Part shown: one piece after another, positions 6,994 through 27,473 of the stretch
How the letters are laid out: each line of letters begins with the position of its first letter
Numbering within the stretch: the stretch's first letter is position 1
Assembly (NCBI GenBank): GCA_013286315.1
Contig: JABDFX010000014.1
Span: 1-43,280, forward strand
DNA: 43,280 nucleotides
Direction of reading: 5' to 3'
From: Bacteroidota bacterium
GTDB taxonomy: Bacteria; Bacteroidota; Bacteroidia; Chitinophagales; Chitinophagaceae
The notes under the pieces: generated by a model
What the model was told of the DNA's origin: nothing
What the model saw: the letters and a program-made list of their open reading frames with translations, nothing else
The model's database searches: none
Program-made: the position numbers and the translations under genes

Positions 6994-7077
6994 GCCCGGA
7001 TGGCGGAATTGGTAGACGCGCCAGACTCAAAATCTGGTTATCGCAAGGTAGTGCAGGTTCGATTCCTGTTCCGGGCA
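6994..7077 (+). tRNA. tRNA-Leu (anticodon CAA)
   Basis: An 84-nt class II tRNA. The acceptor arm GCCCGGA (6994-7000) pairs with TCCGGGC (7070-7076), with A as discriminator. The anticodon arm CCAGA/TCTGG encloses a CTCAAAA loop with anticodon CAA at 7028-7030. A long variable arm (GGTTATCGCAAGGTAG) and the T arm GGTTCGATTCC are present. CCA is not fully encoded (CCT follows). The 3' end is the island's integration site: bases 7061-7077 are part of the 21-bp direct repeat. Confidence 0.97.
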
Positions 7078-7081
7078 CCTG
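7061..7081 (+). repeat. attL direct repeat (21 bp)
   Basis: The repeat begins GATTCCTG and ends GGGCACCTG. It overlaps the last 17 bases of tRNA-Leu, so integration restores an intact tRNA. It is identical to 27453-27473, and identity stops at both edges. Confidence 0.95.
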
Positions 7082-7205
7082 GTTATCAATGAGTTGTAAA
7101 GTAATCTAAGACTACTTAACTACAGAGATTAGATTTGCACGGATTTGATACCTCAAGAATAACAGTTAATAGAATTTGATTTTCTCACAATCAAATCTAT
7201 TAAAA

Positions 7206-10916: not shown

Positions 10917-11690
10917 CTAAAAAAGTAGAATTATTTTTCCGTCATTTTTTAATTCAATTGTATAGGCAAGTATCAACTCTTTCAGGCTGGTGGCATCTTT
11001 CAATATCGACAGGTCTTTATATCTTTCCGTAAACATTTTCATCAGCCGGTTCGGATCAACGTCATCTTCTTCGACTATCACCGGGTCAGCGCAGATATTC
11101 AATACCTCATCCATAAAATCAATCACCAACTCTTCAATGTCAATTTTTCCATCTTCATTTACTTTAACCGCACCATCTGCATTTGCTGCAAGCAAGGCCT
11201 CTATAAATCCTTTAGGTTCGCCATATTCTCTTACCCAAGATGCAACTTCCAAATCGTCCGGATAGGGCGGCGCATTTTCTGCCCAGTAATTCCTGTACAA
11301 TAAAATATCTTTCAACCTCAATAGCAGGTTAAACATTGTTTCATTGCCTATTCCGTCTTGGTTGGAACATACATGGCCTTTACCGGGCTCAAAATATTTT
11401 ATATTGGGGTGCCAGATATCTGTTAATGCAGTAATAGCTGCGGGAAATGTCGGGTAATTATTGCTTAAATCAATTCTTATTATATGTTTGTTCCCAAATA
11501 TGGGGGTGTTGTCTTTATTAATTCCAATAAAAGTCCGTAGCTTAAACGTAATATCATATATCTCGGGAATGTCTGTGCCAATCATCGGTTTATGAACTGC
11601 GAAGGAAATAGTGTTACTGTTTTTACACAGATCCTCAATAGCACGCTTTTCATTTAACAGTCGCTGTGATCTTCCGTCGAAAGTTGCCAT
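10917..11690 (-). CDS. E2-like ubiquitin-conjugating enzyme (UBC fold)
   Basis: 257 aa. The UBC core is recognisable in order: strands with FGNKHIIRIDL, the YPTFPA turn (79-84, cf. eukaryotic YPxxPP), HPN at residues 94-96, then GHVCSN with the presumed catalytic Cys108, followed by the helix NLLLRLKDILLYRNYW and a Pro-rich PPYPDD. His-Pro-Asn ~12 residues before the Cys is the classic E2 active-site layout. Residues ~170-257 are an extra acidic C-terminal domain without a clear match. The enzyme would take a thioester-linked Ubl from the E1 at 16105. It is transcribed divergently from the plus-strand run with only 63 bp between starts, which implies joint control. Confidence 0.88.
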   Translation of the reverse strand: MATFDGRSQRLLNEKRAIEDLCKNSNTISFAVHKPMIGTDIPEIYDITFKLRTFIGINKDNTPIFGNKHIIRIDLSNNYPTFPAAITALTDIWHPNIKYFEPGKGHVCSNQDGIGNETMFNLLLRLKDILLYRNYWAENAPPYPDDLEVASWVREYGEPKGFIEALLAANADGAVKVNEDGKIDIEELVIDFMDEVLNICADPVIVEEDDVDPNRLMKMFTERYKDLSILKDATSLKELILAYTIELKNDGKIILLF

Positions 11691-11753
11691 GGATCATTTT
11701 TTTGTTTAACTAATTTAAAAAAAATTATATATATTTCACAACAAAACTATTTA
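11691..11753. promoter_or_regulatory. Divergent control region between the E2 gene and the plus-strand operon
   Basis: This 63-bp, extremely AT-rich gap holds both start regions. On the minus strand TAGTTTTG (complement of 11742-11749) matches TAnnTTTG for the E2 unit. On the plus strand TATATTTC (11730-11737) matches the -7 box with one mismatch. Their overlap suggests coordinated or mutually exclusive expression. Confidence 0.45.
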
Positions 11754-13697
11754 ATGCCAGCCGCAACTGCTACATCATCCTCTTTAACTAAAGAAGCGTC
11801 AGGTGTACAAACACCAAATATCGCATCCGGCTATTCAATGTTGGCAAAGTCATATATTAATGCAGTAAAATCGAAATTCTTTGGCTTAAGGGCATACGAA
11901 AAAAACATCGGTATGCTGAATTGGATTACGGCACAACTCCAAATACTCAATAATTTTTTTCCAGTGGATATTTATTATAATGCTTCGGCAACTGATAGTA
12001 CCGCTTTTCTAATGAATAATATTTTTCCCTCTCTAAATGGATGTAAAACAACAAAATTCAAAATCTTTCCTATACCTACTTCTTATACAAATGAAAACTA
12101 TATAAATCCTGATGGCATGGGCTCTGCTTTTATGTTTGTTACGAAGAAGTATGAATTGAACAGGATTATTGAACAGTACACAGAAATTGAGTCTCGGTAT
12201 ATCTCGCTTACTATTATTGCATCTTTTAAAACCACGCGTCGGGACATTCTCGCCCCGAAAATCCCTTTTCAAATAATTCAGGTAAAAGATACCGATTTAT
12301 ACAATAAAGAATTGACCAATCGTTTTTTACGACACATAACAGAACAAAATACTATCGGTTACACAAATACAATGATTGCCGTTTTGTGGCAAAAATTCAT
12401 TGCATTGCTGTTTAAAATTGATGGAGAAATTGACCTGGATATTTTGAATCTTGAAGCAACGCTAAAAGTAATATCGGCGAACAAACCCTCACTAAGCAGT
12501 TCATCAAACAGTTCTTTTCTGTCTACGAAATCTGTATTGGAAAGATATATTAAAGATACTGCGGCAGATTTTCAAAAAAGAACAAATGCAAGGGTAGATG
12601 AATATTACAATTCGGATACCGGAATGCTAGTTAAACGACTTAACGAAGCGATAGAAAACCTCACAGAATCTTCGCTTGTGATACAAAATTCCCACAAAAA
12701 AGATGTTAAAGAAGTATTATTAAACCAAACAGAAATCCCAAAATTTCAATCAGAAGTTGACAATTCACTCGATAGAGAATTCAACCAAAAAATTGTGCCC
12801 GATATTAAAAATGTGTTTACAAGTATTTACATTGATATTAACAGAGACTTAGTAAAAAAGAACTTAGTTGAACTATCAACAACAGCGGTGGAGATTAATC
12901 TCAACAGAAAACTAAGCCGGCTTGGTTTTGATAAAAGTATTGTAAGCGATTATATATCTGAGATATCATATATCGGTAAAGTGGGTGTTTATCCTAAAAT
13001 AAAGTCATTACGCGAAGGAGCATTTCAATTGTTGATTTTTGTGATGATGCTGAACTTTCTCAATCCTTCTTTTAAGTCAAGAAATGTACTATATACCCAT
13101 CCTAAAGGTGAAAGTAAAGATTTAACACATACAACGCCTGTGACCGAATGGCGGGAAATTAAACCTACCCTGCTGGGAAAGGTTCTTTACTTTGCAGAAG
13201 GATATGGCACGCTAAAAGATGAAAATTCAGAACCACCTGACATCTTAAACACAGATCAAATTGATCTGATTGAAACAACTCCTACCAGGTTTATCGGCAG
13301 AGGATCTTCAATTGGAATGGTAATAGCCGTTATATTGATGGCACTGTCGTATATTGAATACCAAGAGTCCCTGAAAAAATATGCAGCCGATGAAGAGGAA
13401 AGGAACTTAAGAAATATTAAAAATGAACTTAAATCTAACACGAAAAGGATTTTACAAGGCGTAAACAAAAATATCAAGGATTTTGTAAACGAATCCTTTA
13501 CCGATTTGCAAAATGACTTAATAAGAGCACTAGATCTTGTTAAGAGTTATTCTGATGAACGAGACCAAGAATATATGTTGCGTACCGGAGAAAATTCAAA
13601 CAACAACAAATATTTAAAGGTAAAATTACTGGAACTTGAAGCATTTAAGAAGGTGAACCGCGCAAAGATTGATGAATTTCAGAAATTTAGATCTTAA
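11754..13697 (+). CDS. Large helical membrane protein, first gene of the Ub-like operon
   Basis: 647 aa, not recognised. There is no signal peptide and the N terminus is Ser/Thr/Ala-rich. Long helical stretches cover about 255-420. A weak hydrophobic segment lies at ~422-437 (FQLLIFVMMLNFL), a stronger TM at ~517-536 (SSIGMVIAVILMALSYIEY), and the last 110 residues are highly charged and helical. This late-TM, long-helix arrangement is loosely like dynamin-like or stalk proteins, but no P-loop (GxxxxGKS/T) is present, so GTPase activity is not supported. As first gene of the plus-strand run, it may be a membrane platform or substrate for the modification system. Confidence 0.7.
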   Translation: MPAATATSSSLTKEASGVQTPNIASGYSMLAKSYINAVKSKFFGLRAYEKNIGMLNWITAQLQILNNFFPVDIYYNASATDSTAFLMNNIFPSLNGCKTTKFKIFPIPTSYTNENYINPDGMGSAFMFVTKKYELNRIIEQYTEIESRYISLTIIASFKTTRRDILAPKIPFQIIQVKDTDLYNKELTNRFLRHITEQNTIGYTNTMIAVLWQKFIALLFKIDGEIDLDILNLEATLKVISANKPSLSSSSNSSFLSTKSVLERYIKDTAADFQKRTNARVDEYYNSDTGMLVKRLNEAIENLTESSLVIQNSHKKDVKEVLLNQTEIPKFQSEVDNSLDREFNQKIVPDIKNVFTSIYIDINRDLVKKNLVELSTTAVEINLNRKLSRLGFDKSIVSDYISEISYIGKVGVYPKIKSLREGAFQLLIFVMMLNFLNPSFKSRNVLYTHPKGESKDLTHTTPVTEWREIKPTLLGKVLYFAEGYGTLKDENSEPPDILNTDQIDLIETTPTRFIGRGSSIGMVIAVILMALSYIEYQESLKKYAADEEERNLRNIKNELKSNTKRILQGVNKNIKDFVNESFTDLQNDLIRALDLVKSYSDERDQEYMLRTGENSNNNKYLKVKLLELEAFKKVNRAKIDEFQKFRS

Positions 13698-13836
13698 AGC
13701 TATTCGGCCTACTAGGGGCAAAAGAAACAAATACAGCTGCAGTAAAAACGCTTTGTAAATAAATACAACCTTCGAAATCCTTCGCTTGAATTCTGGTTAT
13801 TAATTTTTACAAGCCTTACCAAATTCAAACCACATT

Positions 13837-15408
13837 ATGAAACTACTGAGCATATTTATTGATGCGGAAAAGATAAACTCTTTTCTAACCGATTCGTTAA
13901 CTAATGATACTATGCCAGTCTATGATATTAACGACAGATCGAGTGTTACCTATCCCTGTGCTATCCACATCAATGAAAATTATGCAGCTTTAGGAAGATA
14001 TGCAAACTGTATTGCATTAGGTATCAACGGAAATATACAACCTCTTAAAGACTATTCTGAAAATAGTACTAACCTCAATTATTATGAAAGGAATTTTTTG
14101 CAGGTCTTTTTTGAAAATCCATTTTTTTCAACAAATTATGTATCTAACCAATCCTGCTTTGCGTTGCTAATCAAAAAAATAGTTTTTGACGCTTACTACG
14201 TTTCCAATTTTACCGAGATCGATCGCATTCTATTTATACCAACGGTCCGTTTTAGTGATGTAATAGAGCGTTTTATTAGGGAGTCTTACCTACTTTTCAA
14301 TTCAGACATTCCATATGAAATTTTATCGTTTGAAAACTTGTTGGATTATTTGTCGCTCGATACCCGACAGCCGAAAAGTATTTTTGATAGCATCACAAGT
14401 GTCAGTTTTTTTGAGCAGACATTTTTAATCAAATCAGACAATGGAATAAATCATCTTGCTGGAATATTAGATTATGGCACAGGTAACTTTAAGAAGAAAA
14501 TCATCGGGCTTATTCTTTCATCATTAGGGCTGCAAAAGGTAAAATTGAGCCAGATAGATGAATTAAGACTGGACAATGCCTTTTCGGATATAATGGTCTT
14601 CTTTGGAAACCGCGCCGCCGCAAACAACTTCTGCATTCCGGTAGAAATTAACAATTGCATCCATTTTATAAATTTCAACAACAATTTGCCTACTGAAGCT
14701 ATTACCGGAGAGATTGACTTTTTCTTGCGACAAATAACTAAAAGTGTTACTTCCAAACTGCCACGTATGGTAATTTATAACGACATTTTTCAATCAAATT
14801 ATATAAAGCAGATGGCTGAGCAACAAATTAACCGCATATCTCCGGTAGATATCACGTGCGAGGCAATAGACGGGTTAAAAGATTTTATCTCCCCTGCACT
14901 TTATAATTTAAGCAGTTTTTACGAATCGAAAATAAAAATAAACGAAACGGCCAGCCTTGTTGGAAAAGATTATTACATAACCATTTACGACCAAAAAAAT
15001 GACTCAAAAGGTAGGGTTAAATTATTTGACAAAAACCTCAAAATTCCGGCTTATTACAGCGCCATCGTACAGGGCCGTTTTATACAGCAAGACAGAATTT
15101 ATTTTGAAATCATTGAGAAAGGGAAAGAAAATTTGGAAAATATATTTTTACGTGTTATTATCGTTATATCTAATGAAATGGATTTCGGCGAAAATCTGAC
15201 GCTCAGTCTGCGATTTTTCTTAGGAGGAGACCGGAAGATCCGGGTTGAAGCAGTCGAGAACTTCAGTGGCAAAAAGGCGGAGGTCAATTATATTTATAAT
15301 GAAACTACTAATTTTGCTTTGTTAAAGCAATCCAAAGTAGTAGCTGATTTTAAGATCCTCAATAATTACATGGACAAGAAGAAAGAGATGTCCGTTAGTA
15401 TACTTTAA
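13837..15408 (+). CDS. Divergent Hsp70/actin-fold protein
   Basis: 523 aa. The order of elements follows Hsp70. There is an N-terminal strand (KLLSIFIDA), and VTYPCAIHINENYAALGRYA resembles the Hsp70 segment with PSVV...VG..A. IDRILFIPTVRFSDVIERF resembles the VTVPA region, and GILDYGTGNF (about 209-218) the DLGGGTFD phosphate-2 strand. PRMVIYNDIFQSNYIKQM resembles the VLVGGSTRIP segment, and CEAIDGLKDFISPAL the adenosine-motif helix. Residues ~370-487 resemble the SBD-beta sandwich (LKIPAYYSA...IYFEIIEKG...RKIRVEA). Phosphate-1 glycines are missing, so ATPase activity may be lost. It could act as a chaperone or substrate adaptor for the ligase system. The assignment is inferred by eye; a 139-bp gap precedes it. 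Confidence 0.55.
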   Translation: MKLLSIFIDAEKINSFLTDSLTNDTMPVYDINDRSSVTYPCAIHINENYAALGRYANCIALGINGNIQPLKDYSENSTNLNYYERNFLQVFFENPFFSTNYVSNQSCFALLIKKIVFDAYYVSNFTEIDRILFIPTVRFSDVIERFIRESYLLFNSDIPYEILSFENLLDYLSLDTRQPKSIFDSITSVSFFEQTFLIKSDNGINHLAGILDYGTGNFKKKIIGLILSSLGLQKVKLSQIDELRLDNAFSDIMVFFGNRAAANNFCIPVEINNCIHFINFNNNLPTEAITGEIDFFLRQITKSVTSKLPRMVIYNDIFQSNYIKQMAEQQINRISPVDITCEAIDGLKDFISPALYNLSSFYESKIKINETASLVGKDYYITIYDQKNDSKGRVKLFDKNLKIPAYYSAIVQGRFIQQDRIYFEIIEKGKENLENIFLRVIIVISNEMDFGENLTLSLRFFLGGDRKIRVEAVENFSGKKAEVNYIYNETTNFALLKQSKVVADFKILNNYMDKKKEMSVSIL

Positions 15409-15416
15409 TTATTTTT

Positions 15417-15683
15417 ATGACTAGTCCGGTAATGAATACCCAAGACGCAATTAGCCACTTGCGTTATCCCAATCCGTTGCCATCCAAAGTAGATTTTAGA
15501 ATTATAAAAGAATCTTACTTCAGAAACGTCATTGCATTTACGGACGCTGGCCATAACGAAGTTTCTGACTTGGTGGAGGAATCTTATAATTTTTTGTGTC
15601 TACCGCGTATCCTTACAGTTTCCGATACTGATATTTTGCAACATATCACTGATACTGAGCCGCCTGGAATCATATTTTTATAA
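15417..15683 (+). CDS. Small 88-aa protein between Hsp70-like and Ubl genes
   Basis: Unrecognised. It starts 8 bp after the Hsp70-like stop and ends 17 bp before the Ubl start, so it is embedded in the operon and probably real. The sequence is compact and mixed alpha/beta in appearance (VDFRIIKESYFRNVIAF, VEESYNFLCLPRIL, DILQHITDTEPPG), with no Cys pair, TM or signal peptide. There is no C-terminal Gly-Gly, so it is not an obvious second modifier. It could be an adaptor for the Ubl or the Hsp70-like protein. Confidence 0.65.
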   Translation: MTSPVMNTQDAISHLRYPNPLPSKVDFRIIKESYFRNVIAFTDAGHNEVSDLVEESYNFLCLPRILTVSDTDILQHITDTEPPGIIFL

Positions 15684-15700
15684 ACCTTAAACCTTAAGTT

Positions 15701-15979
15701 ATGGCAACTATAAAACTTACACTTTTCGATTCTTCAAATAATGCCAAACATGAGATGGAACTCCCCGACTCCATTACTGGGGATCAGATTATTAAAGCAA
15801 TGATTGACCGCGGAAAATTAAATCGCACCGATGACAGTGGCAATCCTATAGTATATGAACTTGTGGCAGGAAAAAGAGAAGCTAGTTTGGGCAAAAAAAT
15901 CACGACCAAGTCGCTTAAAGATGCCGGAGTTCAAAATGGTGATCAACTGATCGTGCGATCTACAATAATTGCAGCTTAA
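15701..15979 (+). CDS. Ubiquitin-like protein with Ala-Ala C terminus
   Basis: 92 aa with a beta-grasp pattern: strand 1 (TIKLTLFD), strand 2 (HEMELPDSI), helix (TGDQIIKAMIDRGKL), strand VYELVAGKRE, then SLKDAGVQNGDQLIVRSTIIAA. The last 11 residues align without gaps to the TLHLVLRLRGG tail of ubiquitin, putting Ala91-Ala92 exactly where ubiquitin has Gly75-Gly76. It resembles YukD-type and other bacterial Ubls. Position next to E1 and JAMM genes supports a modifier role, but the missing Gly-Gly makes the chemistry uncertain. The stop codon follows directly, so no peptidase maturation is needed. Confidence 0.85.
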   Translation: MATIKLTLFDSSNNAKHEMELPDSITGDQIIKAMIDRGKLNRTDDSGNPIVYELVAGKREASLGKKITTKSLKDAGVQNGDQLIVRSTIIAA

Positions 15980-16104
15980 ATATTGTTCCATAATCGTTTC
16001 ATGTTTGAATCGCGTTTACCCACAGGAATGGCTTCTTAGAATTGCCGACTTATTTAACATTCAGTAGATTTCTTTCAATTTGTTTGAAATTAAAAGAATA
16101 ATAA

Positions 16105-17328
16105 GTGTTTATTCAAACTCCAGAACCTTCAGATATTGCTGCAGACGGTAGGTACACCAGACTGGAAATGATTAAGACTCTCAATTTTGAGAAGATCCGT
16201 CACGCAAAAGTAATGGTGATCGGTGCGGGTGCCGTTGGAAATGAAGTAATAAAAAACCTCGCACTTTTTGGAGTTGGCAATATTTATATAGTTGATTTTG
16301 ACAACATTGAAAAATCCAACTTAACCCGTGCTGTTCTCTTTCGCGAAAGGGACACTAAAAAAAAATCATACAAATCTATTGTAGCTGCAAAACGTGCCAA
16401 TGAAATAAACCCAGATTGCAATATCATCGCCCGCAATGCTGATATAGTATACGATATTGGCTTGGGTGTTTTCAGACAAATGGATGCAGTCATTTGCTGT
16501 ATTGACAGCCGCTTTGGTAGATTGATGATCAACCGCTATTGTTACTGGCTCAATAAATCCTGGATAAACTGCGGTATACTTGATGCAGAAGGAATCTGTA
16601 CTGTATATAAACCAGGCGTAAATGATTATGAGTCTGAGCTCAGCGATTTTGCCTGGAAAAATATACGATTCCGCTTGGGCTGTCCTGATATAGCAAGAAC
16701 TTTTTTTGAAGAAGGTAGTACCCCTACCACGCCTATATCTGCTTCTATAATTGGCGCTGTGCAGGTGTCTGAAGCCCTAAAAATTATTCACGGATATGAT
16801 GAGCAATTACTAGCCGGCTTCGAATTCAGGTTTGACCTGAGAAAAAATGAATTCTTTCTTACCGAGGGAACAGAAATAAAAGCTGACAGCGAAAGCCATA
16901 AAAGGATGGAATATATTCAGATGACAAACCTTTCATCTGCATCTACGATATCTCAACTGAAAGATTATATTGCCCGTGAGACAGATAATATCAACTATGA
17001 AGTAGTTTTAAGAAATCCTGTGGTTACAAAAGTACAACGAGAAATAGACGGCAAAACTTTTAAGACACTGGTGAAAGAATCAGGCCTCGCCCAATATCTT
17101 GACAAGAAGAAGATGCGCGACTGTGACAGCGATCACTTACACAACAGGATCTTTATAAAGGAAAAAACAACGGTTTTAACCGCACAAACACCACTAGATA
17201 AATTCAGTTTAAAATCTATCGGCGTTCCTGACTTGGACATACTGGAAGTGAGAACGGAAACAAAGGGAACCTTATATATTGAACTAACTGCGGATTCCTC
17301 AAAATATTTTAATCAGTCGTATGACTAA
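16105..17328 (+). CDS. E1-like (ThiF/MoeB-family) Ubl-activating enzyme
   Basis: 407 aa from a GTG start; an alternative ATG lies at 16168 (MIKTLNFEK). The adenylation domain is complete: GAGAVG (40-45), VDFDNIEKSNLTR (63-75), Arg80 and Lys86-90, and the Mg-binding Asp134 in CCIDSR. It would adenylate the Ubl C terminus with ATP. After it comes LGCPDIAR (Cys193) and EGSTPTTPISA (203-213); the crossover-loop position often holding the catalytic Cys just before the TP/TTP motif is Ser205, so Cys193 is the nearest candidate. The C-terminal ~140 residues are unassigned; residues ~355-395 (PLDKFSLKSIGVPDLDIL) look beta-grasp-like and could parallel the E1 ubiquitin-fold domain that recruits E2. 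No CxxC zinc ribbon is seen. It overlaps the JAMM gene by 8 bp. Confidence 0.92.
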   Translation: MFIQTPEPSDIAADGRYTRLEMIKTLNFEKIRHAKVMVIGAGAVGNEVIKNLALFGVGNIYIVDFDNIEKSNLTRAVLFRERDTKKKSYKSIVAAKRANEINPDCNIIARNADIVYDIGLGVFRQMDAVICCIDSRFGRLMINRYCYWLNKSWINCGILDAEGICTVYKPGVNDYESELSDFAWKNIRFRLGCPDIARTFFEEGSTPTTPISASIIGAVQVSEALKIIHGYDEQLLAGFEFRFDLRKNEFFLTEGTEIKADSESHKRMEYIQMTNLSSASTISQLKDYIARETDNINYEVVLRNPVVTKVQREIDGKTFKTLVKESGLAQYLDKKKMRDCDSDHLHNRIFIKEKTTVLTAQTPLDKFSLKSIGVPDLDILEVRTETKGTLYIELTADSSKYFNQSYD

Positions 17329-19006
17329 AATTTTGCTATTCTTAGCTACACTTTGTTGTCTTACATGTTTCTCATCATTAGGAAACGGCAACAGAAAATT
17401 TATTTTCGACGCTGATAGTTTTAAAGAAACAAAGAATGGTATAAACGTGCGGCTTACTCACTTGCCAAAAAAATTTAACATTTCAAAAATTGAAAAGATA
17501 ACTGTCTATCAAATTTCAAGTAACACTCTTAATTTCTGTGCGTCAAAATATCACGTCGACCCCAGTGAGCCAGATAATGCCATCCTGATCACCTTTAAAC
17601 TGGCTAACAGGACTTCAGATAATGATGACTATGAATTTAAACTTGTAGTCAACTATGACGGCAAAAGATATACATCACTAAGAAAAGATGTTTCAATTAC
17701 ATTTCAAGAAAAAGAGAATAAAGAAGCAAACACTGTGGCGAAAAAATCGCAGATAGAAAAAAACAACCAAAATATAACTTCCGACACACGAGGCACTCCA
17801 CAACATGCGGCAGATTCACCAGTTAATAGAAATTTTGAAAAAATATATGCTGACACTGTTCATGACGGAGAGTGCCTATTCCTAAAGGCCGTGTTTCTGG
17901 CAAATGAAATACATGCCCTTACCAAAAAAGATGTAGAAATTAAACAGGGAGGAAATACTCTAACAAATTTTAGTATAACAGTTGAATCAATCCATTATAA
18001 TAAAGCCAACAATTCCTTTATTTGTATATTTAAGCCAATAGACAAATTCGAGCTGCTGTTTACTATAACTATTCTTACCAACAAAAAAAAGTATTTTACC
18101 GATGCCAGCAATTTTAGAAATATAAAATTTGATAACCCTACCTGCAGAAAAGCAGCCGAAATTCCTGCCGCGGTTGACATTCCAACAACTACCAGTTCAA
18201 ATATATACCAATATATTTTTTATACCTGTCTACTAATTGGAATATTGGTGATAGCTAGAATTGCTTATGTTTATTTTAATAAAAAAAAGAGCATTACCAC
18301 AAGCAATCCTGACCACAACCAAAATTTTAATAACGGCGTGGCCGACGAAAATATACCGGCTGATGCGCAGATAACCTTTTTGGACGATTTTGCCCTCCTA
18401 CAGGTTGACAAAAAACAAACCGCTAGCAATCTTTCGCCAGTTTTATTAGATGGCCATAAAGAATTAATCAACCTCGATCAGTATTTTACTAATACCTCTG
18501 TAGCAATCGTGTATATCAGCGAGGAGGCCGCAAGGGATGTTTTTCTGCTTTTATTTGATTCGGTCAAAACGAGGCCTGCGCCTGAAGTGGGGGGATTCCT
18601 GATGGGCAGAATTCAAACGAATGTCTCTGATGCAAAAAAACTGGATGTAATTATTGACAAATTTATTAAAGATGGAACGCCCAATTACCAAGATAATTTT
18701 ACGATTACTTTCAGTGCTCAAATAAGCGTTGATGAGCTGGATTATTTGAACAACACACCCGGAAGCCTGAAAGTTGGTTGGTTGCATACACACCCCGGTC
18801 ACGGGATATTTCTTTCCGAACCTGATCTAAAAACACATCTGCAGGCATTCCCTTTTCCTTACCAGATTGCAATTGTAATTGAAAGTTATGACGAATTTAA
18901 AACTGGCGTATTTAGCTATAAACTTACAGAGAAAGAAATAAACAATAGCAAGGATAAAAATGAAACCAATTTTAAAAGCTGGACTAATTTAATTTATGTC
19001 AAATAA
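17321..19006 (+). CDS. Membrane-anchored JAMM/MPN+ isopeptidase (deubiquitinase-like)
   Basis: 561 aa. A signal peptide (residues 1-~22) is followed by a periplasmic region of two beta-rich domains (~25-130 and ~175-270), one TM helix at about 297-318 with a basic stop (NKKKS), then a cytoplasmic JAB/MPN domain (~390-535). The zinc-site motif is intact: Glu422 in PEVGGFLMG, His489 and His491 in GWLHTHP, Ser499 and Asp502 in LSEPD, i.e. HxHP-x6-SxxD. JAMM enzymes cut isopeptide or C-terminal Ubl bonds. The start overlaps the E1 stop (ATGACTAA), implying translational coupling. A periplasmic sensor fused to a deconjugase is unusual and suggests that deconjugation responds to an envelope signal. 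Confidence 0.92.
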   Translation: MTKILLFLATLCCLTCFSSLGNGNRKFIFDADSFKETKNGINVRLTHLPKKFNISKIEKITVYQISSNTLNFCASKYHVDPSEPDNAILITFKLANRTSDNDDYEFKLVVNYDGKRYTSLRKDVSITFQEKENKEANTVAKKSQIEKNNQNITSDTRGTPQHAADSPVNRNFEKIYADTVHDGECLFLKAVFLANEIHALTKKDVEIKQGGNTLTNFSITVESIHYNKANNSFICIFKPIDKFELLFTITILTNKKKYFTDASNFRNIKFDNPTCRKAAEIPAAVDIPTTTSSNIYQYIFYTCLLIGILVIARIAYVYFNKKKSITTSNPDHNQNFNNGVADENIPADAQITFLDDFALLQVDKKQTASNLSPVLLDGHKELINLDQYFTNTSVAIVYISEEAARDVFLLLFDSVKTRPAPEVGGFLMGRIQTNVSDAKKLDVIIDKFIKDGTPNYQDNFTITFSAQISVDELDYLNNTPGSLKVGWLHTHPGHGIFLSEPDLKTHLQAFPFPYQIAIVIESYDEFKTGVFSYKLTEKEINNSKDKNETNFKSWTNLIYVK

Positions 19007-19012
19007 TAAGTT

Positions 19013-21508
19013 ATGAATTATAAAGGTCTTTTACTTGTTTGGTCATTGCTAGTATTGGAACCTTCTTTACTTTTTTGCCAAACCTTACAAAATAAGAAAG
19101 AGATAACAATTAACCAGATTGTTCCCGCAGAAGACAGCGGCTATATAAATGTATATTTTGATCTTCCTAACGATCCGGAATTGCGCGATAAAATTGATTT
19201 GTTTCGCAGCGGTCTTCATGTGAAAGAAGTAGTCAATGGACGAACCTATGATATAGATGATGCTCATTTACAGGTTCTGTCAGTTGATGTGAATGATGGA
19301 ATATCTGAAAACATTAGTTCAAATCCGACGAGCAAAACATCTTCCTATCAGGAGAAAAATATTATATTGGTTTATCTTGACAGAAGCGGCTCCATGTCCA
19401 CGCAAATGTTGGAGGAAGTATTCATTTCGTTTAAAAAACTTCTCCGTCTAGCTAAGGCAACAAAGAGCCCTTTGTACTTTGGTACTTTTGATAGCTATGT
19501 TTCGCTTCCACAATACAAATTAAACCTTGACGGAGAGCCGGAGGAATACGTTTTTACCGATATACAACCAGGTGGTAAAGAGTACAGTTTTGCTGAATTC
19601 AAGAATCTCTTTGACAAAAAAAATGAAAACGAGACAACATATGATACAGATCTGTATGGCGCGTTAGAGATTGGTACCGAATATTTAAACAATGAAGATG
19701 TAATTCCAGCCCTGAAGGACTTTACAGGCAAGAAAGTATTTATCTTGTTTACGGATGGACGATTTGACATAAACGAGACAAAGTATTTGCATAAAAAAAA
19801 GCCTCTGGCTGTAGAAAGACATTTAACTGACGGGTTTGGTCAAGAAAAGGTATTGAATGCATTAAAATCAATAGATAAGTCCATTGCCATATATCCCATA
19901 GCCTATGGAGTTGAAGCAGATCAAAAATTTCTAACTGCAGTCTGCGACCATACACCTAACGCTACCGATAAAGTCTTTACGGCTAATGTTTCCGGTCTTA
20001 ACGATATTTTTAATCAGATAGCCAAAGAAGCCAAATCAAAATATGTTATCCGCTATGCGCCGGAAAACAAGGTTTTTAAGGGAGAAAAGCGAATTTTCAA
20101 ATTAAGTTCTGTTATTGAAGGTCAGATATTCAGAGAAGATGATAACCAGAAAGAGTATTCTTATGCTGATCCCTTTAACATAAAAGAATTTGTTCGTATC
20201 TGGCCAAACAACGATAACCCGGAAACCCATTCCATCTCTAAGTTCTTATACATTGTCATTCCGGTGTGTATATTTCTTTTGATTGCGTTTGCAGCATTGC
20301 TTATATACCCAGCTTTTTACACGTCTTCGTTTAAGTCAAAATATTTCATAATATATAATAACCCATCGGATGGTTCCGAAACGTGTTCTTATTGTAGTAA
20401 CCCTTTTGTAACAGGAGATATTATCGTAAATAAATGCGCTCATAAAATACATGCCGAATGCTGGAAAGATAACAACAATTCATGCGTCATGTATGCAAGG
20501 GGAAAATGCAAAGAAGGCAAACAAGAGATATCAGGTGTTCTTAACCTAATTAAAAATCCATTTAAAGTAGATGCTATTGGCAACGGACTTGCAGGCGCCA
20601 CAGGTGGCATCATTGCCGGGTTGGCCACCAAATTGTTTATTGATAAAATACTGACCTTTTCCTTTTTCAGTTCTTTTGAAAAATCGGCTTTTATCAGTAA
20701 GTCAACAATATCATTTGGGTTAAGCGGACTTTTTCTAGGCTTTTTCATCTCCATGAGTATTGGTATATTCAAAAACCGTTTTCATAAGGGCTTTAAAAAT
20801 CTGATAAAACCAGTTCTCTTTATACCGGTACTTACAGGGATTGCCTGTCTTATAATAAACGTCCTTATATTCTCATTTACTCAACGCTATTTCAACATCC
20901 CATATTTAAGTTCCATTTTAATTTGGGTCATATTTGGGGTAACCGTTGCTTCTTTACTTGCATTAGTAAGTGACATGAATTATAAAAATGCCATTATAGG
21001 TGGCGCCATCGGTGGCATTATTGGGGGTATGCTTGTAGAAATACTTCCACTGGTTATTCCACCCGGTTATAGATCGGTTTCCGACATCGTTGCAAAAATG
21101 TTCTTGGGTGGCGCCTTGTCCATGGTACTATCAATCGTGATCAATAAACTTGAAGACTGTTATCTGAAAGTAGTCAGCGGCAACTACAATTCAGACAAGC
21201 CATTTTACATAAGCAAATGGCTTAACCGTTCAGATCTCGGATATGTGCTTATTGGTTCAAATGGAAAAGAATCACAGGTAGCCCTGGCATTTGATACATC
21301 GGATCAAATCTCTCCTACCCATTGCAAAATAACAAAAAAGTTACAGGCATATAATATCGAGAACGTTTCAGATAATAAAGACCTGTTGGTTAATAACAGG
21401 TATGTATACAGGGGTAACCCTGCGTGGTTAAATAACGGAGATTCCATTCGACTTGGAAAAACCACTTTAAGATTTGAATTAAAAAGAAATTTAAATAATA
21501 AAAATTAA
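19013..21508 (+). CDS. Periplasmic vWA - cytoplasmic RING-like - multi-TM - FHA-like protein (candidate E3 ligase)
   Basis: 831 aa. A signal peptide (1-~23) leads to a vWA domain (~115-340) with the MIDAS motif DRSGS (Asp123, Ser125, Ser127), Thr208/209 and TDG (247-249). TM1 is at ~409-436. Then a Cys/His module: C458-x2-C461-x13-C475-x-H477-x2-H480-x2-C483-x7-C491-x7-C499, the RING-H2 order except that the last pair is x7 instead of x2. Six further helices follow (~521-712), then an FHA-like domain (~740-824) with SPTH (767-770) and NNGDSIRLG; the canonical GR is GS. Even TM counting puts both RING and FHA in the cytoplasm. With E1, E2, Ubl and JAMM next to it, an E3 role is the natural reading. 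The start lies 6 bp after the JAMM stop. Confidence 0.82.
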   Translation: MNYKGLLLVWSLLVLEPSLLFCQTLQNKKEITINQIVPAEDSGYINVYFDLPNDPELRDKIDLFRSGLHVKEVVNGRTYDIDDAHLQVLSVDVNDGISENISSNPTSKTSSYQEKNIILVYLDRSGSMSTQMLEEVFISFKKLLRLAKATKSPLYFGTFDSYVSLPQYKLNLDGEPEEYVFTDIQPGGKEYSFAEFKNLFDKKNENETTYDTDLYGALEIGTEYLNNEDVIPALKDFTGKKVFILFTDGRFDINETKYLHKKKPLAVERHLTDGFGQEKVLNALKSIDKSIAIYPIAYGVEADQKFLTAVCDHTPNATDKVFTANVSGLNDIFNQIAKEAKSKYVIRYAPENKVFKGEKRIFKLSSVIEGQIFREDDNQKEYSYADPFNIKEFVRIWPNNDNPETHSISKFLYIVIPVCIFLLIAFAALLIYPAFYTSSFKSKYFIIYNNPSDGSETCSYCSNPFVTGDIIVNKCAHKIHAECWKDNNNSCVMYARGKCKEGKQEISGVLNLIKNPFKVDAIGNGLAGATGGIIAGLATKLFIDKILTFSFFSSFEKSAFISKSTISFGLSGLFLGFFISMSIGIFKNRFHKGFKNLIKPVLFIPVLTGIACLIINVLIFSFTQRYFNIPYLSSILIWVIFGVTVASLLALVSDMNYKNAIIGGAIGGIIGGMLVEILPLVIPPGYRSVSDIVAKMFLGGALSMVLSIVINKLEDCYLKVVSGNYNSDKPFYISKWLNRSDLGYVLIGSNGKESQVALAFDTSDQISPTHCKITKKLQAYNIENVSDNKDLLVNNRYVYRGNPAWLNNGDSIRLGKTTLRFELKRNLNNKN

Positions 21509-21513
21509 ATGTT

Positions 21514-22929
21514 ATGGCGACAAAATCTCTTGAGGAAATGCACCAGGAAGCCGATGTATTAACTAACGAAAACAAAGAACTGCAAGCCCAATCTGAAAAA
21601 TTACAAGGGGAGATGCAGCAATTTTACGATCATGCTCATGAGCTTACTGAAGAAATCAAAGTATTTCGTGATCAGACACAACATTTACACGACGAGTCAC
21701 ATGCTTTTCATGATCAGGCGCAGCACCTGCACGATGCATCGCAAACAATTCACGATGAAACACAAAACCTGCACAATGAATCGCAAACGCTCCATGACCA
21801 GACACAACAACTGCATGATGAATCGCAAACACTCCATGACCAGACACAACAGTTTCATGACGAAGCTCAAGTACTTCATGATCAGACCCAGCATGCATCT
21901 GAAGATGCCGGTCACATGCATGATCACCTATCTCAATTACACGATCACACGGGTCAATTGCACGACCATGCCAATCAACTGCACGATCAAACATCGCAAT
22001 TGCATGACCATACTAGCCAACTACACGATCATGCCGCACAATTACATGATCATACCACCCAACTGAACGACCAAACCGGTCAGTTGCATGATCACACCGC
22101 GCAATTGCATGATCACACTGCACAATTACACGATCACACAAGCCAATTGCACGACCATACCAACCAGCTGATGGATCATACGAATCAGCTTCACGATCAT
22201 ACCAATGAGCTGCATACACACACGGGAGAAATGCATGACCATTCTGTGCAATTACATGATCACATTATACAGCTGGCCAACAATACCCTGCAACTGCACG
22301 ACCAAACCTCATCCCTACATGATCAGACGCAAACCCTGCACGATCAGAGTGAGCAACTGACTTCTGCCATTACCGAATTAAATACAACGTCCGAAGGGCT
22401 TACCAAGGAAACACAGCAATATAACACCGAAAGCCACCAACTCCTGATTGATACACAGAACGCCAATCAGCAGACACATGCCTTGCAAGCTGATACACAA
22501 ACGGTCAACGCTACTTCTCATCAATTACAACAGGATATAGAAGGCCTCAAGCAAAATGGCCAACAATTGGTAGAGAATATCCATAGCCTGGAACAAACGT
22601 CTAATCAGCTAAAAGATCACATTGAGGGATTATTTGGAGAAAGCAAAGATTTGAAAGAAAATATTGCTGGCGTCCTGGATGACTCAAAACAGCTGCACAC
22701 CAACATTACGGACTTGTTGAATAATGCTAAAAACTTTGTGTCGAATATTGAAGATGTATTCAGCAATGCAAAACATGTATTCGATGCAATTTCTGAAAAC
22801 AAAAGTAATGCAGAAAACATTGTGGGTGACATTAAGTCTGTATATGACACAGCGCATTCTGTTATGGAAGCCATTCAGGCAATACAAACCGCTGCAGAAG
22901 CAGTGGAAGCTGCATTGTTAGTGCCCTAA
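21514..22929 (+). CDS. His-rich heptad-repeat protein A
   Basis: 471 aa, cytoplasmic (no signal peptide or TM). From about residue 40 to 290 it is an almost uninterrupted run of 7-residue repeats. Early ones read LHDExQT/LHDQTQ-like and central ones LHDHTxQ. Residues ~290-471 keep a helical 7-residue rhythm without His (e.g. NITDLLNNAKNF). One Leu per heptad with His at two fixed positions suggests a very long helix or coiled coil with lines of histidines that could bind metal or respond to pH. The C-terminal part resembles that of the protein at 23753, so the two are paralogues. It starts 5 bp after the E3-like gene. Function is unknown; a filament or scaffold is inferred. Confidence 0.85.
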   Translation: MATKSLEEMHQEADVLTNENKELQAQSEKLQGEMQQFYDHAHELTEEIKVFRDQTQHLHDESHAFHDQAQHLHDASQTIHDETQNLHNESQTLHDQTQQLHDESQTLHDQTQQFHDEAQVLHDQTQHASEDAGHMHDHLSQLHDHTGQLHDHANQLHDQTSQLHDHTSQLHDHAAQLHDHTTQLNDQTGQLHDHTAQLHDHTAQLHDHTSQLHDHTNQLMDHTNQLHDHTNELHTHTGEMHDHSVQLHDHIIQLANNTLQLHDQTSSLHDQTQTLHDQSEQLTSAITELNTTSEGLTKETQQYNTESHQLLIDTQNANQQTHALQADTQTVNATSHQLQQDIEGLKQNGQQLVENIHSLEQTSNQLKDHIEGLFGESKDLKENIAGVLDDSKQLHTNITDLLNNAKNFVSNIEDVFSNAKHVFDAISENKSNAENIVGDIKSVYDTAHSVMEAIQAIQTAAEAVEAALLVP

Positions 22930-22933
22930 TAAA

Positions 22934-23725
22934 ATGAATATGATTGTGACCGAACTATTGGATTATAACCTGTTCATGCTTATGAATCCTGGTATTTGCT
23001 TTCATCCCGGCGGTTTGCTGGCAACTTACAAAGTAACTAGAAATGTTCCCGGAATTTCTAAAGAATCGGGCATTCTTGATTTCGGTAGCGGTAACGGCCT
23101 ATCACTTTTCTTTTTACAAAAAATGGGATTCAAAAAATTATATGGTTACGATGTAAATGCCCAACTTATTGAAAAGGCAAAAAAACGCTTTGGCGCCAAT
23201 CGTGAAATATTATTTTATGACGCTTTGACAGATTGGCACAACGCGACACCGGAAATATACTTGATGATGTTGGAAAGTATTTTCAGTTATATTAAGGAAA
23301 GTGATATGCTGGGCTTTACGACCCAGTTAAAAAAAGTAATGGCAATATCGGGCGCCAAGTATTTAAGTGTGATAGATTTTTATTGTATTGATCAGCCTTC
23401 CGAGGCTATGAAAAAGGAATTCAGGTACATCTTTAATTCAAACCAGTTAAGGACCAAACTAGAAGTTTGGCAGATAATAAATAGCTTAAGCCCAAATGGC
23501 AAAGTTGTATATCAGGAAGAATTAAAAATTGCTAATCAACCGGAGGTTGTATTCGGGAATAAAATTAACAATTATGATTACTTGAAAAACATTATTAAAG
23601 ACCATGTCGCATCTGTTGAGGAAGCCATAGAATACCAAAAAAAATACATCGGCCATATTTGCGCGTTTAATGACACTTTTTGTAAAAATTTTATATTCTT
23701 CAAAGCCGTCGTGGAGATCAATTAA
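22934..23725 (+). CDS. SAM-dependent class I methyltransferase
   Basis: 263 aa. Motif I is clear (GILDFGSGNGLSLFF, about residues 45-59), followed by the acidic motif II (LYGYDVNAQLIEKA) and ILFYDAL. The remainder fits the class I Rossmann methyltransferase fold. It starts 4 bp after one heptad-repeat gene and ends 27 bp before the other, so the three form a module. The substrate is unknown. Given the position, the Glu/Gln/His-rich repeat proteins are candidate protein substrates, by loose analogy to the CheR-MCP pair, though this is not a CheR sequence. Confidence 0.85.
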   Translation: MNMIVTELLDYNLFMLMNPGICFHPGGLLATYKVTRNVPGISKESGILDFGSGNGLSLFFLQKMGFKKLYGYDVNAQLIEKAKKRFGANREILFYDALTDWHNATPEIYLMMLESIFSYIKESDMLGFTTQLKKVMAISGAKYLSVIDFYCIDQPSEAMKKEFRYIFNSNQLRTKLEVWQIINSLSPNGKVVYQEELKIANQPEVVFGNKINNYDYLKNIIKDHVASVEEAIEYQKKYIGHICAFNDTFCKNFIFFKAVVEIN

Positions 23726-23752
23726 ACTGAAAAACATTCAAATGATAAATTT

Positions 23753-25216
23753 ATGATATCAACTGAAGCTTTTGCGCTACAAGCGCTTGCATTATCTGAC
23801 AGCTCGGCGGTCCTACATAAACAAAGTGATATACTGCAAAATGACATGCACCATTTTCATAGCGAAGCGCAACAACTAACAGAAAAAACAAAGTCTTTTC
23901 ACGATCAGGCACAACAGCTAAGCGAGGAAAGTCATACATTTCGAGACCAGTCGCATAGTCTACAGGAGGAAGGCCGAACACTGCACGATCAAACCCAACA
24001 TTTAAATGAAGAATCACGTGCATTTCATGATCAAACACATGGTTTGCATGAGGAGGCGCAAGTTTTTCGTGATCGAACCCAACATCTTAACCAGGAAACC
24101 AGCACCTTACTTGGTCAGACACAACACCTGAAAGAAGAAACTAATCAGCTGCACGATATTATCAGTAACCTTAATAATCATGCTACTCAAATTCACGACC
24201 ATACCGGTCTGCTGATTGACCAGACTGGACAACTGCACGATCAAACCAGCCATTTACACGACCATACAGCGCAGCTGCACGACCATACATCACAGCTGCA
24301 CGACCATACATCACAGCTGCACGACCATACATCACAGCTGCACGACCATACGGCGCAGCTGCACGACCATACATCACAGCTGCACGACCATACATCACAG
24401 CTGCACGACCATACAAGCGAAATGGCTGAACATGTATTGCAGCTGCACAACCATACTGGCCAGTTACACGAGCATACCGGACAGTTAGAGGTTCATATTG
24501 GTCAGTTACATGACCATGCTGCAGAATTAGAGAATCAATCCGTACAATTGCACGAACACACACAGCAGTTAAAGACACAGACAGACTCAATTCTACAGAA
24601 TATTCAAGCGTTGCATACGAGAAGCACAGAGATCACCAATTCAATCACTACTTTTAATACCACTTCAGAAAACCTTACCAGCGAAACGAAGAATACCTAT
24701 GAGCAAACACAAAACACATTAAATAATACCCAAGATTTAAACACGCAAACGCATGTACTGAACGACGATATCAACAAGGTACAGCAAGCCGCAGATGTTT
24801 TGATAAGCGATATCAATTCATTAAAAGAAAATGGAACGGAGGTTACAAATATTACCAACAACCTGCACCAGCATTCCGACGAATTGAATGGCCATATCAA
24901 TGATTTATTGGGAAGCAGTAAGGAGCTGAAAACTAATATAGAGGATCTAGCAAATGATGCAAAAAATATGGAAACGGACATCATTGAAATATTGGGCAAT
25001 GCAAAAAAATCAGGTGAAAGTATAGGGGATATTTACGATCACTCAAAAGATTTATTAAATTTTATACAAGGACACAAAGGAAGCGCCGACAGCGCCCTAG
25101 ACGATATTCAGTCAATTTTAACTAATACTCAGTCTATTTTTACCGTCCTACAAACCTTGGCTGCTTCTATTAAAGCATTGGAAGCTGTTAAAGCAGCCAC
25201 ATTTGGGTTAGGTTAA
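23753..25216 (+). CDS. His-rich heptad-repeat protein B
   Basis: 487 aa, paralogue of the protein at 21514. The N-terminal repeats alternate FHDQ/LHEE-type heptads. Residues ~140-235 are nearly pure LHDHT(S/A)Q repeats, and residues ~290-487 are non-His heptads (e.g. DIIEILGNAKKSGESI) matching the paralogue's tail. No signal peptide or TM is seen; the last ~20 residues (IKALEAVKAATFGLG) are hydrophobic and may cap the helix bundle. The central repeats are almost identical at DNA level (see 24272-24418), so repeat number probably varies between strains. It is the last gene of the plus-strand run. Confidence 0.85.
   Translation: MISTEAFALQALALSDSSAVLHKQSDILQNDMHHFHSEAQQLTEKTKSFHDQAQQLSEESHTFRDQSHSLQEEGRTLHDQTQHLNEESRAFHDQTHGLHEEAQVFRDRTQHLNQETSTLLGQTQHLKEETNQLHDIISNLNNHATQIHDHTGLLIDQTGQLHDQTSHLHDHTAQLHDHTSQLHDHTSQLHDHTSQLHDHTAQLHDHTSQLHDHTSQLHDHTSEMAEHVLQLHNHTGQLHEHTGQLEVHIGQLHDHAAELENQSVQLHEHTQQLKTQTDSILQNIQALHTRSTEITNSITTFNTTSENLTSETKNTYEQTQNTLNNTQDLNTQTHVLNDDINKVQQAADVLISDINSLKENGTEVTNITNNLHQHSDELNGHINDLLGSSKELKTNIEDLANDAKNMETDIIEILGNAKKSGESIGDIYDHSKDLLNFIQGHKGSADSALDDIQSILTNTQSIFTVLQTLAASIKALEAVKAATFGLG
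24272..24418 (+). repeat. Coding 21-bp minisatellite
   Basis: Seven consecutive 21-bp units begin CAGCTGCACGACCATAC and differ only in the last four bases (ATCA, GGCG or AAGC). They are in frame (QLHDHTS/A). The near identity at synonymous positions indicates recent expansion or gene conversion rather than selection on protein alone. Confidence 0.92.
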
Positions 25217-26631: not shown

Positions 26632-27258
26632 ATGGAGGATTCATTAGATGATGAAAAAAAGAGACTTGAAATTCAAAAACTGCGGATCGAAAATAAAAAG
26701 GAATTTTCGTGGGCGCATCGTATTCACAAGATCTATATAACTTTTGCACCTGCCACTATCGCCCTTATTTCAGTTATGCTCACTGCTCAAATACTTGTAT
26801 CAGCAAATGTTTTTGATGTTAGCGGTAAGCGGATACAAAATCAGCAGGATAGTTTAAGCTTTAATAAAACGACATTTGAAAAATATAAGAACAAGATTAG
26901 GGACTCAACAAATATTTTAAACCTGCGTATAGATTCACTTACAGATGTAGAGAAAGATTTGAAAAGGCAAATTATTGTCGTTCAGGATGAAAAAGAGAAA
27001 AAATATGCAGAATTAACCGGCAAGCAGAAATTAGCGGTTGACCTTAATGCGGTCAGGAAAGATAGCGCGATACTTAAGGTGGAAAATGAAAAACTTCATA
27101 CCCAAGTAGTCGTGTTCTCCACAGGATATTTTGAACTTAAATCAGCCTCAAATGCTTTTTGCCTCGACTTTGAAAGGCTTACAAAAGATAATCCCTCGAT
27201 TGATTATCGCGGGATATATGTTGATTTTATAAAACTAAAAGGGCTGGCAAACAAATAA
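26632..27258 (+). CDS. Single-TM coiled-coil protein near attR
   Basis: 208 aa, family not recognised. A charged cytoplasmic N-terminal helix (MEDSLDDEKKRLEIQKLRIE) precedes one TM at ~36-58 (ITFAPATIALISVMLTAQIL). A long Lys/Asp/Glu-rich coiled coil (~65-165) and a short C-terminal domain follow. No enzyme motif is seen. The last 190 bp before attR hold nothing I can identify. It may be unrelated cargo of the island. Confidence 0.7.
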   Translation: MEDSLDDEKKRLEIQKLRIENKKEFSWAHRIHKIYITFAPATIALISVMLTAQILVSANVFDVSGKRIQNQQDSLSFNKTTFEKYKNKIRDSTNILNLRIDSLTDVEKDLKRQIIVVQDEKEKKYAELTGKQKLAVDLNAVRKDSAILKVENEKLHTQVVVFSTGYFELKSASNAFCLDFERLTKDNPSIDYRGIYVDFIKLKGLANK

Positions 27259-27452: not shown

Positions 27453-27473
27453 GATTCCTGTTCCGGGCACCTG
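27453..27473 (+). repeat. attR direct repeat (21 bp)
   Basis: Perfect copy of 7061-7081, here without the rest of a tRNA upstream, so it marks the distal end of the island. Confidence 0.95.

Follow-up and report, generated by a model that had tools for sequence, protein, structure and literature searches.

RING-containing prokaryotic ubiquitin-like (Ubl) systems with YukD-like Ubls were reportedly predicted by Burroughs, Iyer and Aravind in 2011, so that RING-bearing bacterial Ubl systems are not new in themselves. The locus described here lies in a window of 43,280 nt (the whole stretch of DNA analyzed: positions 1-43,280 of the forward strand of contig JABDFX010000014.1, assembly GCA_013286315.1, from a Bacteroidota bacterium of the Chitinophagaceae). 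It shares with those systems a YukD-like Ubl, a stand-alone E1, an E2, a JAB protein and a RING, and its membrane vWA/RING/FHA architecture appears to be a variant of that plan: here the RING sits inside a protein with vWA, multiple transmembrane (TM) and FHA parts, and the JAMM protein has a TM helix of its own. With modest confidence, we favor the view that the island carrying this locus encodes a complete, reversible, membrane-embedded Ubl ligation module that is plugged into differing envelope machines.

Other described systems resemble parts of the locus. Types 6a-6e of Iyer 2006 likewise combine E1, JAB, E2 and a stand-alone Ubl in sporadic operons, and type 6e adds a zinc protein, possibly of treble-clef type; the section on these types names no RING, vWA, FHA or membrane anchor (PMC1779556). 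The FtsH-type vWA-MoxR ternary systems, in their description by Kaur 2020 (PMC7159879), also bring vWA, JAB, E1, a RING E3 and Ubl into one operon, but have MoxR, double FtsH ATPases and a Ubl-E2 fusion, whereas Ubl and E2 are separate in the window and no AAA match was seen among the island open reading frames (ORFs) scanned; membership was therefore rejected. Bil, Bub (named in PMC13373217) and type II CBASS (cyclic-oligonucleotide-based antiphage signaling system) are alike in being bacterial E1/E2/JAB-type conjugation systems. A sequence-only reading of this DNA had proposed a Bil-type kinship, which we do not retain: Bil is described as a four-gene Ubl/E2/JAB/E1 operon with a two-domain, ISG15-like BilA (PMC11354881), whereas the window has a single YukD-like Ubl of one 92-aa domain, an HPN-type E2, and a vWA/RING/FHA candidate ligase gene and others in the operon. 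Type II CBASS was rejected too, since CBASS tags with a CD-NTase, which was not matched among 10 window proteins scanned with Pfam and 10 with PADLOC, and the window E1 and E2 are separate genes rather than an E1-E2 fusion. Finally, the TssNQOPR complex of the Bacteroidota type VI secretion system (T6SS), T6SS-iii, similarly has, at the inner membrane, a multi-TM protein together with ubiquitin-like, vWA and PKD domains, but as described it has no E1, E2, RING or JAMM (PMC10781749), and the window lies away from the host T6SS, which is on another contig.

The core of the unit is a set of adjacent Ubl, E1, E2, JAB and RING genes with intact catalytic residues. The E2 gene (10917-11690, minus strand) encodes a UBC fold whose match to the Pfam UQ_con model (9.8e-6) is just below cut-off; a relative's E2, from locus L020, exceeds it (1.8e-7), the E2 profile matched E2 structures in the PDB at 3e-10, and both the His94-Pro95-Asn96 motif and Cys108 are kept in all 78 aligned rows. 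A plus-strand run diverges from the E2 gene after 63 bp and consists of 11754-13697, 13837-15408, a gene for an 88-aa protein, Ubl, E1, JAMM, RING, a first repeat protein, a methyltransferase and a second repeat protein that ends at 25216, the intergenic distances ranging from -8 to 139 bp. Within it, the E1 (16105-17328, plus strand) is of ThiF type (Pfam ThiF 5e-47), and Gly40/42/45, Asp64, Arg80, Lys90, Asp134 and Cys193 are present in 70/70 aligned relatives; because of this conservation, Cys193 is likely the catalytic cysteine. The Ubl (15701-15979, plus) is a single YukD-like domain of 92 aa (YukD 8.9e-4, below cut-off; 1.4e-9, above it, for the Ubl of L020) ending in STIIAA. The JAMM protein (17321-19006, plus; JAB 5.6e-5, above cut-off) has a signal peptide, an N-terminal domain and a TM helix at residues 299-317, the peptide and helix being predicted by hydropathy, ahead of a catalytic domain with E422 and H489xH491P492-x6-S499xxD502; His489 and His491 are found in 72/74 rows, Pro492 in 74/74 and Asp502 in 74/75. 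Overall, the ThiF, JAB, FHA and methyltransferase matches exceed their Pfam cut-offs, and those to UQ_con, YukD and the RING models fall below.

The gene that follows (19013-21508, plus) encodes a candidate membrane E3 in which Pfam, hydropathy and a structural model indicate the order vWA, TM, RING, multiple TM helices, FHA. A signal peptide and a TM helix (413-431) precede the RING by hydropathy, and the RING itself (residues 458-499; 20384-20509, plus) was recognized by its ligand pattern and by profile, with eight putative zinc ligands running from C458 to C499 in RING-H2 order. Pfam RING models match below cut-off (Prok-RING_1 0.0082, others weaker), and a 21-row RING profile matches solved E3 RINGs in the PDB, the best being RCHY1 (3.2e-4). 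An AlphaFold model built from 37 rows has a mean predicted local distance difference test score (pLDDT) of 76, with 80-95 over the RING; among the 50 top Foldseek matches listed for this model, FHA and vWA structures predominate and no isolated RING appears. All eight RING-H2 ligands are seen in 36 of the 55 rows that have the region; these include the window, L026 and all rows with Bacteroidales, or one of its genera, in the title. The vWA domain has a DxSxS metal site in the window, its Asp123 being kept in 54/54 rows with a residue there and its two serines varying, and VWA_2 is matched in the relative at L016 (1.6e-7); the FHA domain is above cut-off (1.7e-7). The sequence-only reading had recognized the E2 with its HPN and Cys108, the E1 with Asp134, a beta-grasp Ubl, and a JAMM and a RING-like C/H module that are both membrane-anchored, and all of these are borne out, the Ubl as YukD-like and the anchors as predictions from hydropathy. 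It had also listed vWA and FHA as additions to the unit; both folds were found, but they form one conserved polypeptide with the RING in Bacteroidota.

The core genes travel together. A search with the E2 alignment recovered 168 relatives from named genomes, 80 of which were used, giving 83 loci, some near-identical, that comprise the window, 10 unnamed regions and 72 named loci (8 that repeated unnamed regions were dropped). All five core profiles are present in 48 of these 83, on one strand in 47, with the window as the sole exception on two strands. A RING or U-box-like region lies within the same protein in 38 of the 48; the other ten belong to Chloroflexota (7), Acidobacteriota (2) and Nitrospirota (1). 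For the 43 named loci whose sequence extends 8 kb or more before E2 and 9 kb or more after it, JAB is found in 43, E1 in 42, the vWA/RING/FHA profile in 41 (37 with a RING or U-box-like region) and Ubl in 31, a count in which the ORF filter may have dropped small Ubls. Co-occurrence of all of the roughly ten genes first grouped together is thus seen for the five core genes but not for the extra ones, and the description of a membrane-centered Ubl system with RING and JAMM holds for Bacteroidota but not for Chloroflexota, Acidobacteriota or Nitrospirota, where the protein is split and no RING was seen in it. Separately, we note a Chloroflexi cassette with a Prok-RING_1 protein (9.4e-12) between E1 and E2 (L104:2035-2889), and a gene family related to this protein in 8 loci.

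The Ubl tails are also strongly patterned. An Ala-Gly or Pro-Gly tail is present in 59 of 64 Ubl ORFs (the window counted), at the very end in 41 and followed by 1-5 residues in 18, which the JAMM could trim. Apart from the window, the exceptions are one of two Crinalium Ubls, L047 (127 aa), L055 (271 aa) and L093, which has IAG and then 11 residues. The L047 and L055 proteins (L047:8058-8441 and L055:8623-9438) are second or longer Ubl-like ORFs that match the Ubl profile (3.2e-19 and 7.4e-15) and have no Ala-Gly end. The Crinalium genes are on a cyanobacterial mobilizable plasmid (L002:8998-12481) with a distant E1, two tandem YukD-like Ubls, E2 and JAB; a RING protein was unmatched in the 18.7 kb fetched.

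The Ubl unit is the cargo of a 20.4-kb island (7061-27473) bounded by two copies of a 21-bp sequence from the 3' end of tRNA-Leu. The tRNA-Leu(CAA) at 6994-7079 (plus; ARAGORN, Rfam) is the presumed integration site; the left direct repeat at its 3' end (7061-7081, putative attL) recurs exactly at 27453-27473 (putative attR), and a tyrosine recombinase gene lies just inside (7176-8441, plus; Phage_integrase 1.8e-14, SAM-like 1.9e-12). GC content is 0.368 inside the island and 0.429 and 0.416 outside. When 394 sampled genomes of the family were searched with the E2 alignment, the genome's own copy was the sole match (0/393 others), and the RING protein is matched in 12 of 298 sampled genomes of the order, its own included, two of the 12 being weak. 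The initial description of the locus as mobile thus agrees with the integrase, the tRNA-Leu, the repeats, the lower GC and the rarity of the E2. The tRNA-Leu and left flank are kept in two same-genus genomes (G620 and G470), in which the window integrase and cargo were not matched in the stretches fetched; in neither does the window right flank adjoin the left flank, so there is no clean empty site, and we therefore infer occupancy of the tRNA-Leu site from the repeats. A phage origin was rejected, the E2 alignment having no match in viral contigs, and a tblastn search of plasmids gave no relatives of the RING, dynamin-like or 'Hsp70-like' proteins (the last two being the products of 11754-13697 and 13837-15408). 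The unit was first delimited as 10917-25216; its genes are confirmed there, but it extends further, to 9307-10842 behind E2 and to the whole island.

Reversible Ubl ligation at a membrane is the best reading of these data, because the E1-E2-RING-JAMM set is intact and the Ubl tail is conserved in the family. The E1 would adenylate the Ubl C-terminus and take the Ubl on Cys193, with the E2 as its next carrier, on Cys108. The vWA/TM/FHA protein would hold the RING against the inner face of the membrane, where the RING would act as E3; next to it, anchored through a TM helix of its own, the JAMM domain would trim or remove the Ubl. If the RING and JAMM domains are cytosolic, the vWA and the JAMM N-terminal domain are predicted to be periplasmic, and these domains, perhaps with the 9307-10842 product, may relay the state of the envelope to the cytosolic enzymes. 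That product (9307-10842, minus) is a 511-aa protein behind E2 with a signal peptide and a C-terminal TM helix by hydropathy, and its plan resembles that of the signal-peptide/TM proteins that relatives encode between E2 and JAMM, a likeness of layout. The output, suggested like the sensing step by topology and by swapped neighbors, would be control or assembly of a lineage-specific envelope machine. This machine would be T6SS-iii for the Bacteroidales and for Lewinella, and Portibacter would pair an ion channel with an nSTAND ATPase; in the window, the role probably falls to the operon's own dynamin-like, coiled-coil and methyltransferase products, or to the host T6SS in trans. If this is correct, it would represent transmembrane Ubl signaling in bacteria, with a ligase and a protease that are inner-membrane proteins with periplasmic domains, in contrast to CBASS and Bil, which have been studied mainly as phage defense.

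Several observations weigh against a working membrane ligase in the window, or against its generality. An FHA domain normally has an arginine that is the key residue for phosphothreonine; this FHA domain lacks it, and it is found in only 6 of 67 rows with a residue at that position. The helices that follow the RING number five by hydropathy and six long ones in the model, and an odd number would place the FHA domain outside. The RING regions of 19 of the 55 rows, including Saprospiraceae and Lewinella rows, lack the eight-ligand pattern and resemble a U-box, with Cys475, Cys491 and Cys499 retained in most; 13 of 68 aligned rows, mostly Chloroflexota, match in the FHA or vWA parts only. With these off-pattern rows and the Chloroflexota, Acidobacteriota and Nitrospirota relatives, whose matching protein is split and shows no RING, a RING in the vWA/FHA protein does not seem to be required throughout the family. 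The window E1 alone of 70 has lost three cysteines that the other 69 keep, from a Cys-x2-Cys/Cys-x2-His set that now reads Asp174, Ser177 and Ser262 with His265 kept, which looks like loss of a presumed structural zinc. In the E1 tree the window groups with L026, L069 and Bacteroidales and not with its own order, a placement of which we are unsure given its long branch and Shimodaira-Hasegawa-like approximate likelihood ratio test (SH-aLRT) values of 86-90. The window Ubl is without a terminal Gly (IIAA), the DNA confirming the in-frame Ala-Ala end, and so departs from the Gly-ending or Gly-trimmable tail that is usual, if not strictly defining, for such proteins. Taken with the altered E1 and the long branch, this could mean that the window system is decaying. 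However, an alignment of 1,583 cGAS proteins from CBASS shows either Gly or Ala as the last residue, and changing Gly to Ala lowered but did not abolish conjugation (PMC10097602); by analogy, the Ala-Ala end is therefore compatible with activity. Lastly, the dynamin-like, 'Hsp70-like' and 88-aa genes are unmatched in the loci of relatives, in single-sequence searches that distant relatives could escape.

The T6SS is a contact-dependent weapon with which cells stab their neighbors, and its genes lie near 35 of 68 named E2-bearing loci (upstream in 26, as TssG/TssK downstream in 27, on both sides in 18). Bacteroidales titles, mostly of gut and rumen origin, account for 32 of these 35 and for 40 loci in all; among the eight Bacteroidales loci that remain, L046, L064 and L083 have T6SS genes but no labeled E2. 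Of 21 loci with both TssG and TssK, 20 have the two side by side (gap -3 to 78 bp) with no TssN between them. These genes were assigned by profile against the T6SS proteins of the window genome (3e-21 and 5e-9); against Pfam they give no TssG match and a weak TssK one, and the window genome's own proteins score 1.8e-8 for TssG and 2.1e-4, below cut-off, for TssK/VasE. That genome's own T6SS, on contig C51 and unlinked to the island, has TssN between TssG and TssK, and no T6SS match was found among the window ORFs scanned. Locus L042 exemplifies the nested arrangement: ClpV-like, TssB (weak, 0.0068), TssC, two Hcp genes, VgrG and DUF4280, then the cassette (Ubl, E2, two unassigned genes, JAMM, RING, E1), followed by TssG-like, TssK-like, TssE-like (5.7e-6, just below cut-off), an unassigned gene, glucosaminidase, kinase, a further unassigned gene, PP2C and Sel1. 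A protein kinase and a PP2C phosphatase further downstream of the cassette are noted in L042/L145. Both the flanking of 35/68 relatives by T6SS-iii genes and the adjacency of TssG and TssK without TssN appear to be new: the listings of a search of non-subscription papers showed none that describes a Ubl cassette at T6SS loci, and in PMC4714493, on Bacteroidales T6SS, ThiF, JAB, FHA, von Willebrand and RING are absent as whole words.

The sequence-only reading had ventured a role in defense or stress, which stays conjectural; the commonest context found is the T6SS of Bacteroidales, and it occurs also in Lewinella relatives. The defense idea can be put specifically, as an anti-phage island whose module tags a phage or host protein on infection, in the manner of CBASS Cap2/Cap3, Bil or Bub. 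The window E1 does match CBASS E1-E2 models, the genes are on an island, and relatives have nSTAND1 neighbors (L016, L019, L043 and L051), Ion_trans channels (those four loci and L022, behind the RING gene in L016) and EAD11 (L018). However, the missing CD-NTase match, the want of a two-domain BilA among the window proteins scanned, an E2 alignment unmatched in viral contigs and the prevalence of T6SS neighbors lead us to consider this explanation unlikely, if well worth keeping in mind.

An extension of the ligation module to the T6SS itself is doubtful and is offered tentatively: in Bacteroidales T6SS-iii, the vWA/RING/FHA protein, the TM-JAMM, the signal-peptide/TM partners and a free Ubl may replace TssN and TssR, so that docking by the TssN ubiquitin-like domain is made reversible, and the window would be a mobile, T6SS-free form acting on other envelope machines or on the host T6SS. 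The Bacteroidota T6SS complex is described as consisting of TssN (TM and ubiquitin-like, EccD-like), Q, O, P (PKD) and R (vWA), with TssN and TssP nearly ubiquitous and, in that account, no T6SS-independent locus known for the TssNQOPR set (PMC10781749). In six genomes that have a cassette nested in T6SS genes, whole-genome searches matched TssC in 6/6, TssN in 0/6 and TssR in 0/6, where genome completeness is not given and a divergent TssN could escape the search. In Neolewinella (L032) the order is VgrG, TssE, TssF, TssN (1.8e-10), TssK, M23, E1, Ubl, E2, an unassigned gene, JAMM, RING; with both present, the cassette as a general replacement of TssN was rejected for Lewinella and is kept as a possibility for Bacteroidales. 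The recurrence of the cassette amid T6SS-iii genes, where TssG and TssK have no TssN between them, is relevant to the origin of the Bacteroidota T6SS membrane complex, a question that the account of that complex leaves open (PMC10781749).

The same facts admit a rival in which the Ubl is a structural docking part, like EccD of the type VII secretion system or TssN of T6SS-iii, both of which have ubiquitin-like domains; it would help to build a membrane complex, and E1, E2, RING and JAMM would regulate that assembly or be secondary. A 17-row Ubl profile aligns with a 12-sequence profile of the TssN C-terminal domain over most of the Ubl length (hhalign E 1.1e-4, probability 57%), the best of 30 column shuffles giving E 0.16; TssN is ubiquitin-like, TssP has PKD and TssR has vWA in the published description (PMC10781749), and the six nested-cassette genomes give the counts above. 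The signal is carried by eight Ubls (window, L016, L017, L018, L020, L024, L026 and L029; 5.9e-5), however, and the seven from the Bacteroidales side show no TssN match when used by themselves (E 0.087), so the comparison indicates at most a shared ubiquitin-like fold. The JAMM and c1 profiles against TssN, and the cassette profiles against TssR, gave no match in profile comparisons. Homology between the RING-protein and TssN TM regions was rejected (7.6e-4 in the full profile, 0.023 alone, 0.048 for an ion-channel control). With Neolewinella having the cassette and TssN side by side, and since docking would need neither intact E1/E2 active sites nor a conserved Ala-Gly tail, we consider this account improbable. 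A TssR-family match (2.7e-17) was seen about 16 kb past the cassette in one genome (G031:C65:128628-128870) that has no TssC or TssN match.

Returning to the membrane ligation module, the extra genes of its operon are tied to it by linkage only. The product of 11754-13697 (plus) is a 647-aa, weakly dynamin-like (LeoA-like; PADLOC 1e-5) protein with a TM helix at 513-531, and the 88-aa gene (15417-15683, plus) begins 8 bp behind the 'Hsp70-like' gene. Two His-rich, heptad-repeat coiled-coil proteins (21514-22929 and 23753-25216, both plus; alike by phmmer at 4e-103), with a 21-bp DNA period and LHDHTxQ units, flank an S-adenosylmethionine-dependent methyltransferase-like gene (22934-23725, plus; Methyltransf_25 7.7e-7); the repeat proteins are possibly a metal- or pH-sensing rod. 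The sequence-only reading had named two His-rich repeat proteins and a methyltransferase here. The Hsp70 likeness that it gave to the 523-aa protein of 13837-15408 (plus) fared less well. No Pfam match and no PDB match by phmmer were found, hhalign against DnaK gave a probability of 1% over a stretch in the DnaK substrate-binding part that is a hint only, a single-sequence AlphaFold model has pLDDT 32, and BLASTP against SrfB of L026 gave no support; with the plasmid tblastn included, the label stays unconfirmed. That SrfB gene (L026:11382-13883; 1.5e-176) lies two small genes downstream of the cassette, in a Bacteroidales metagenome-assembled genome, and SrfB is presumably of actin/Hsp70-like fold.

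The extra genes had been counted as part of the same unit as the Ubl genes, a claim that now stands on linkage alone for the 'Hsp70-like', His-rich and methyltransferase genes, with no convincing co-occurrence. That they, with the dynamin-like gene, are unrelated island passengers would accord with the lack of a convincing match in relatives' loci, where single-sequence searches gave one methyltransferase match at E 0.0098 and one to repeat protein 1 at 0.0055, and with the distribution of the 'Hsp70-like' gene, which among 394 family genomes is confined to its own apart from one weak match interrupted by a stop. Gaps of 4-27 bp join the repeat proteins and methyltransferase to the RING gene, however, and gaps of 8-17 bp join the 'Hsp70-like' gene to the Ubl gene; orphan output genes would also be expected if outputs are swapped, and passenger status thus seems to us rather unlikely. 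A sulfur-carrier pathway (ThiS/MoaD-like) in place of conjugation is very improbable: the E1 fold is common to ThiF and MoeB, but an HPN-type E2 and JAB accompany E1 in relatives, and no rhodanese or cofactor gene was found among the operon ORFs scanned.

The island cargo, from the integrase to the right repeat, comprises the Ubl unit with 9307-10842, two further genes and small ORFs. The two genes encode a 208-aa protein with no convincing Pfam match (26632-27258, plus) and a 169-aa protein with no Pfam match and one TM helix predicted by hydropathy (8538-9047, minus). Among the relatives, PKD matches are present in L020 and L016, and L020 also has the type IX secretion system genes PorP/SprF together with CHU_C as neighbors.

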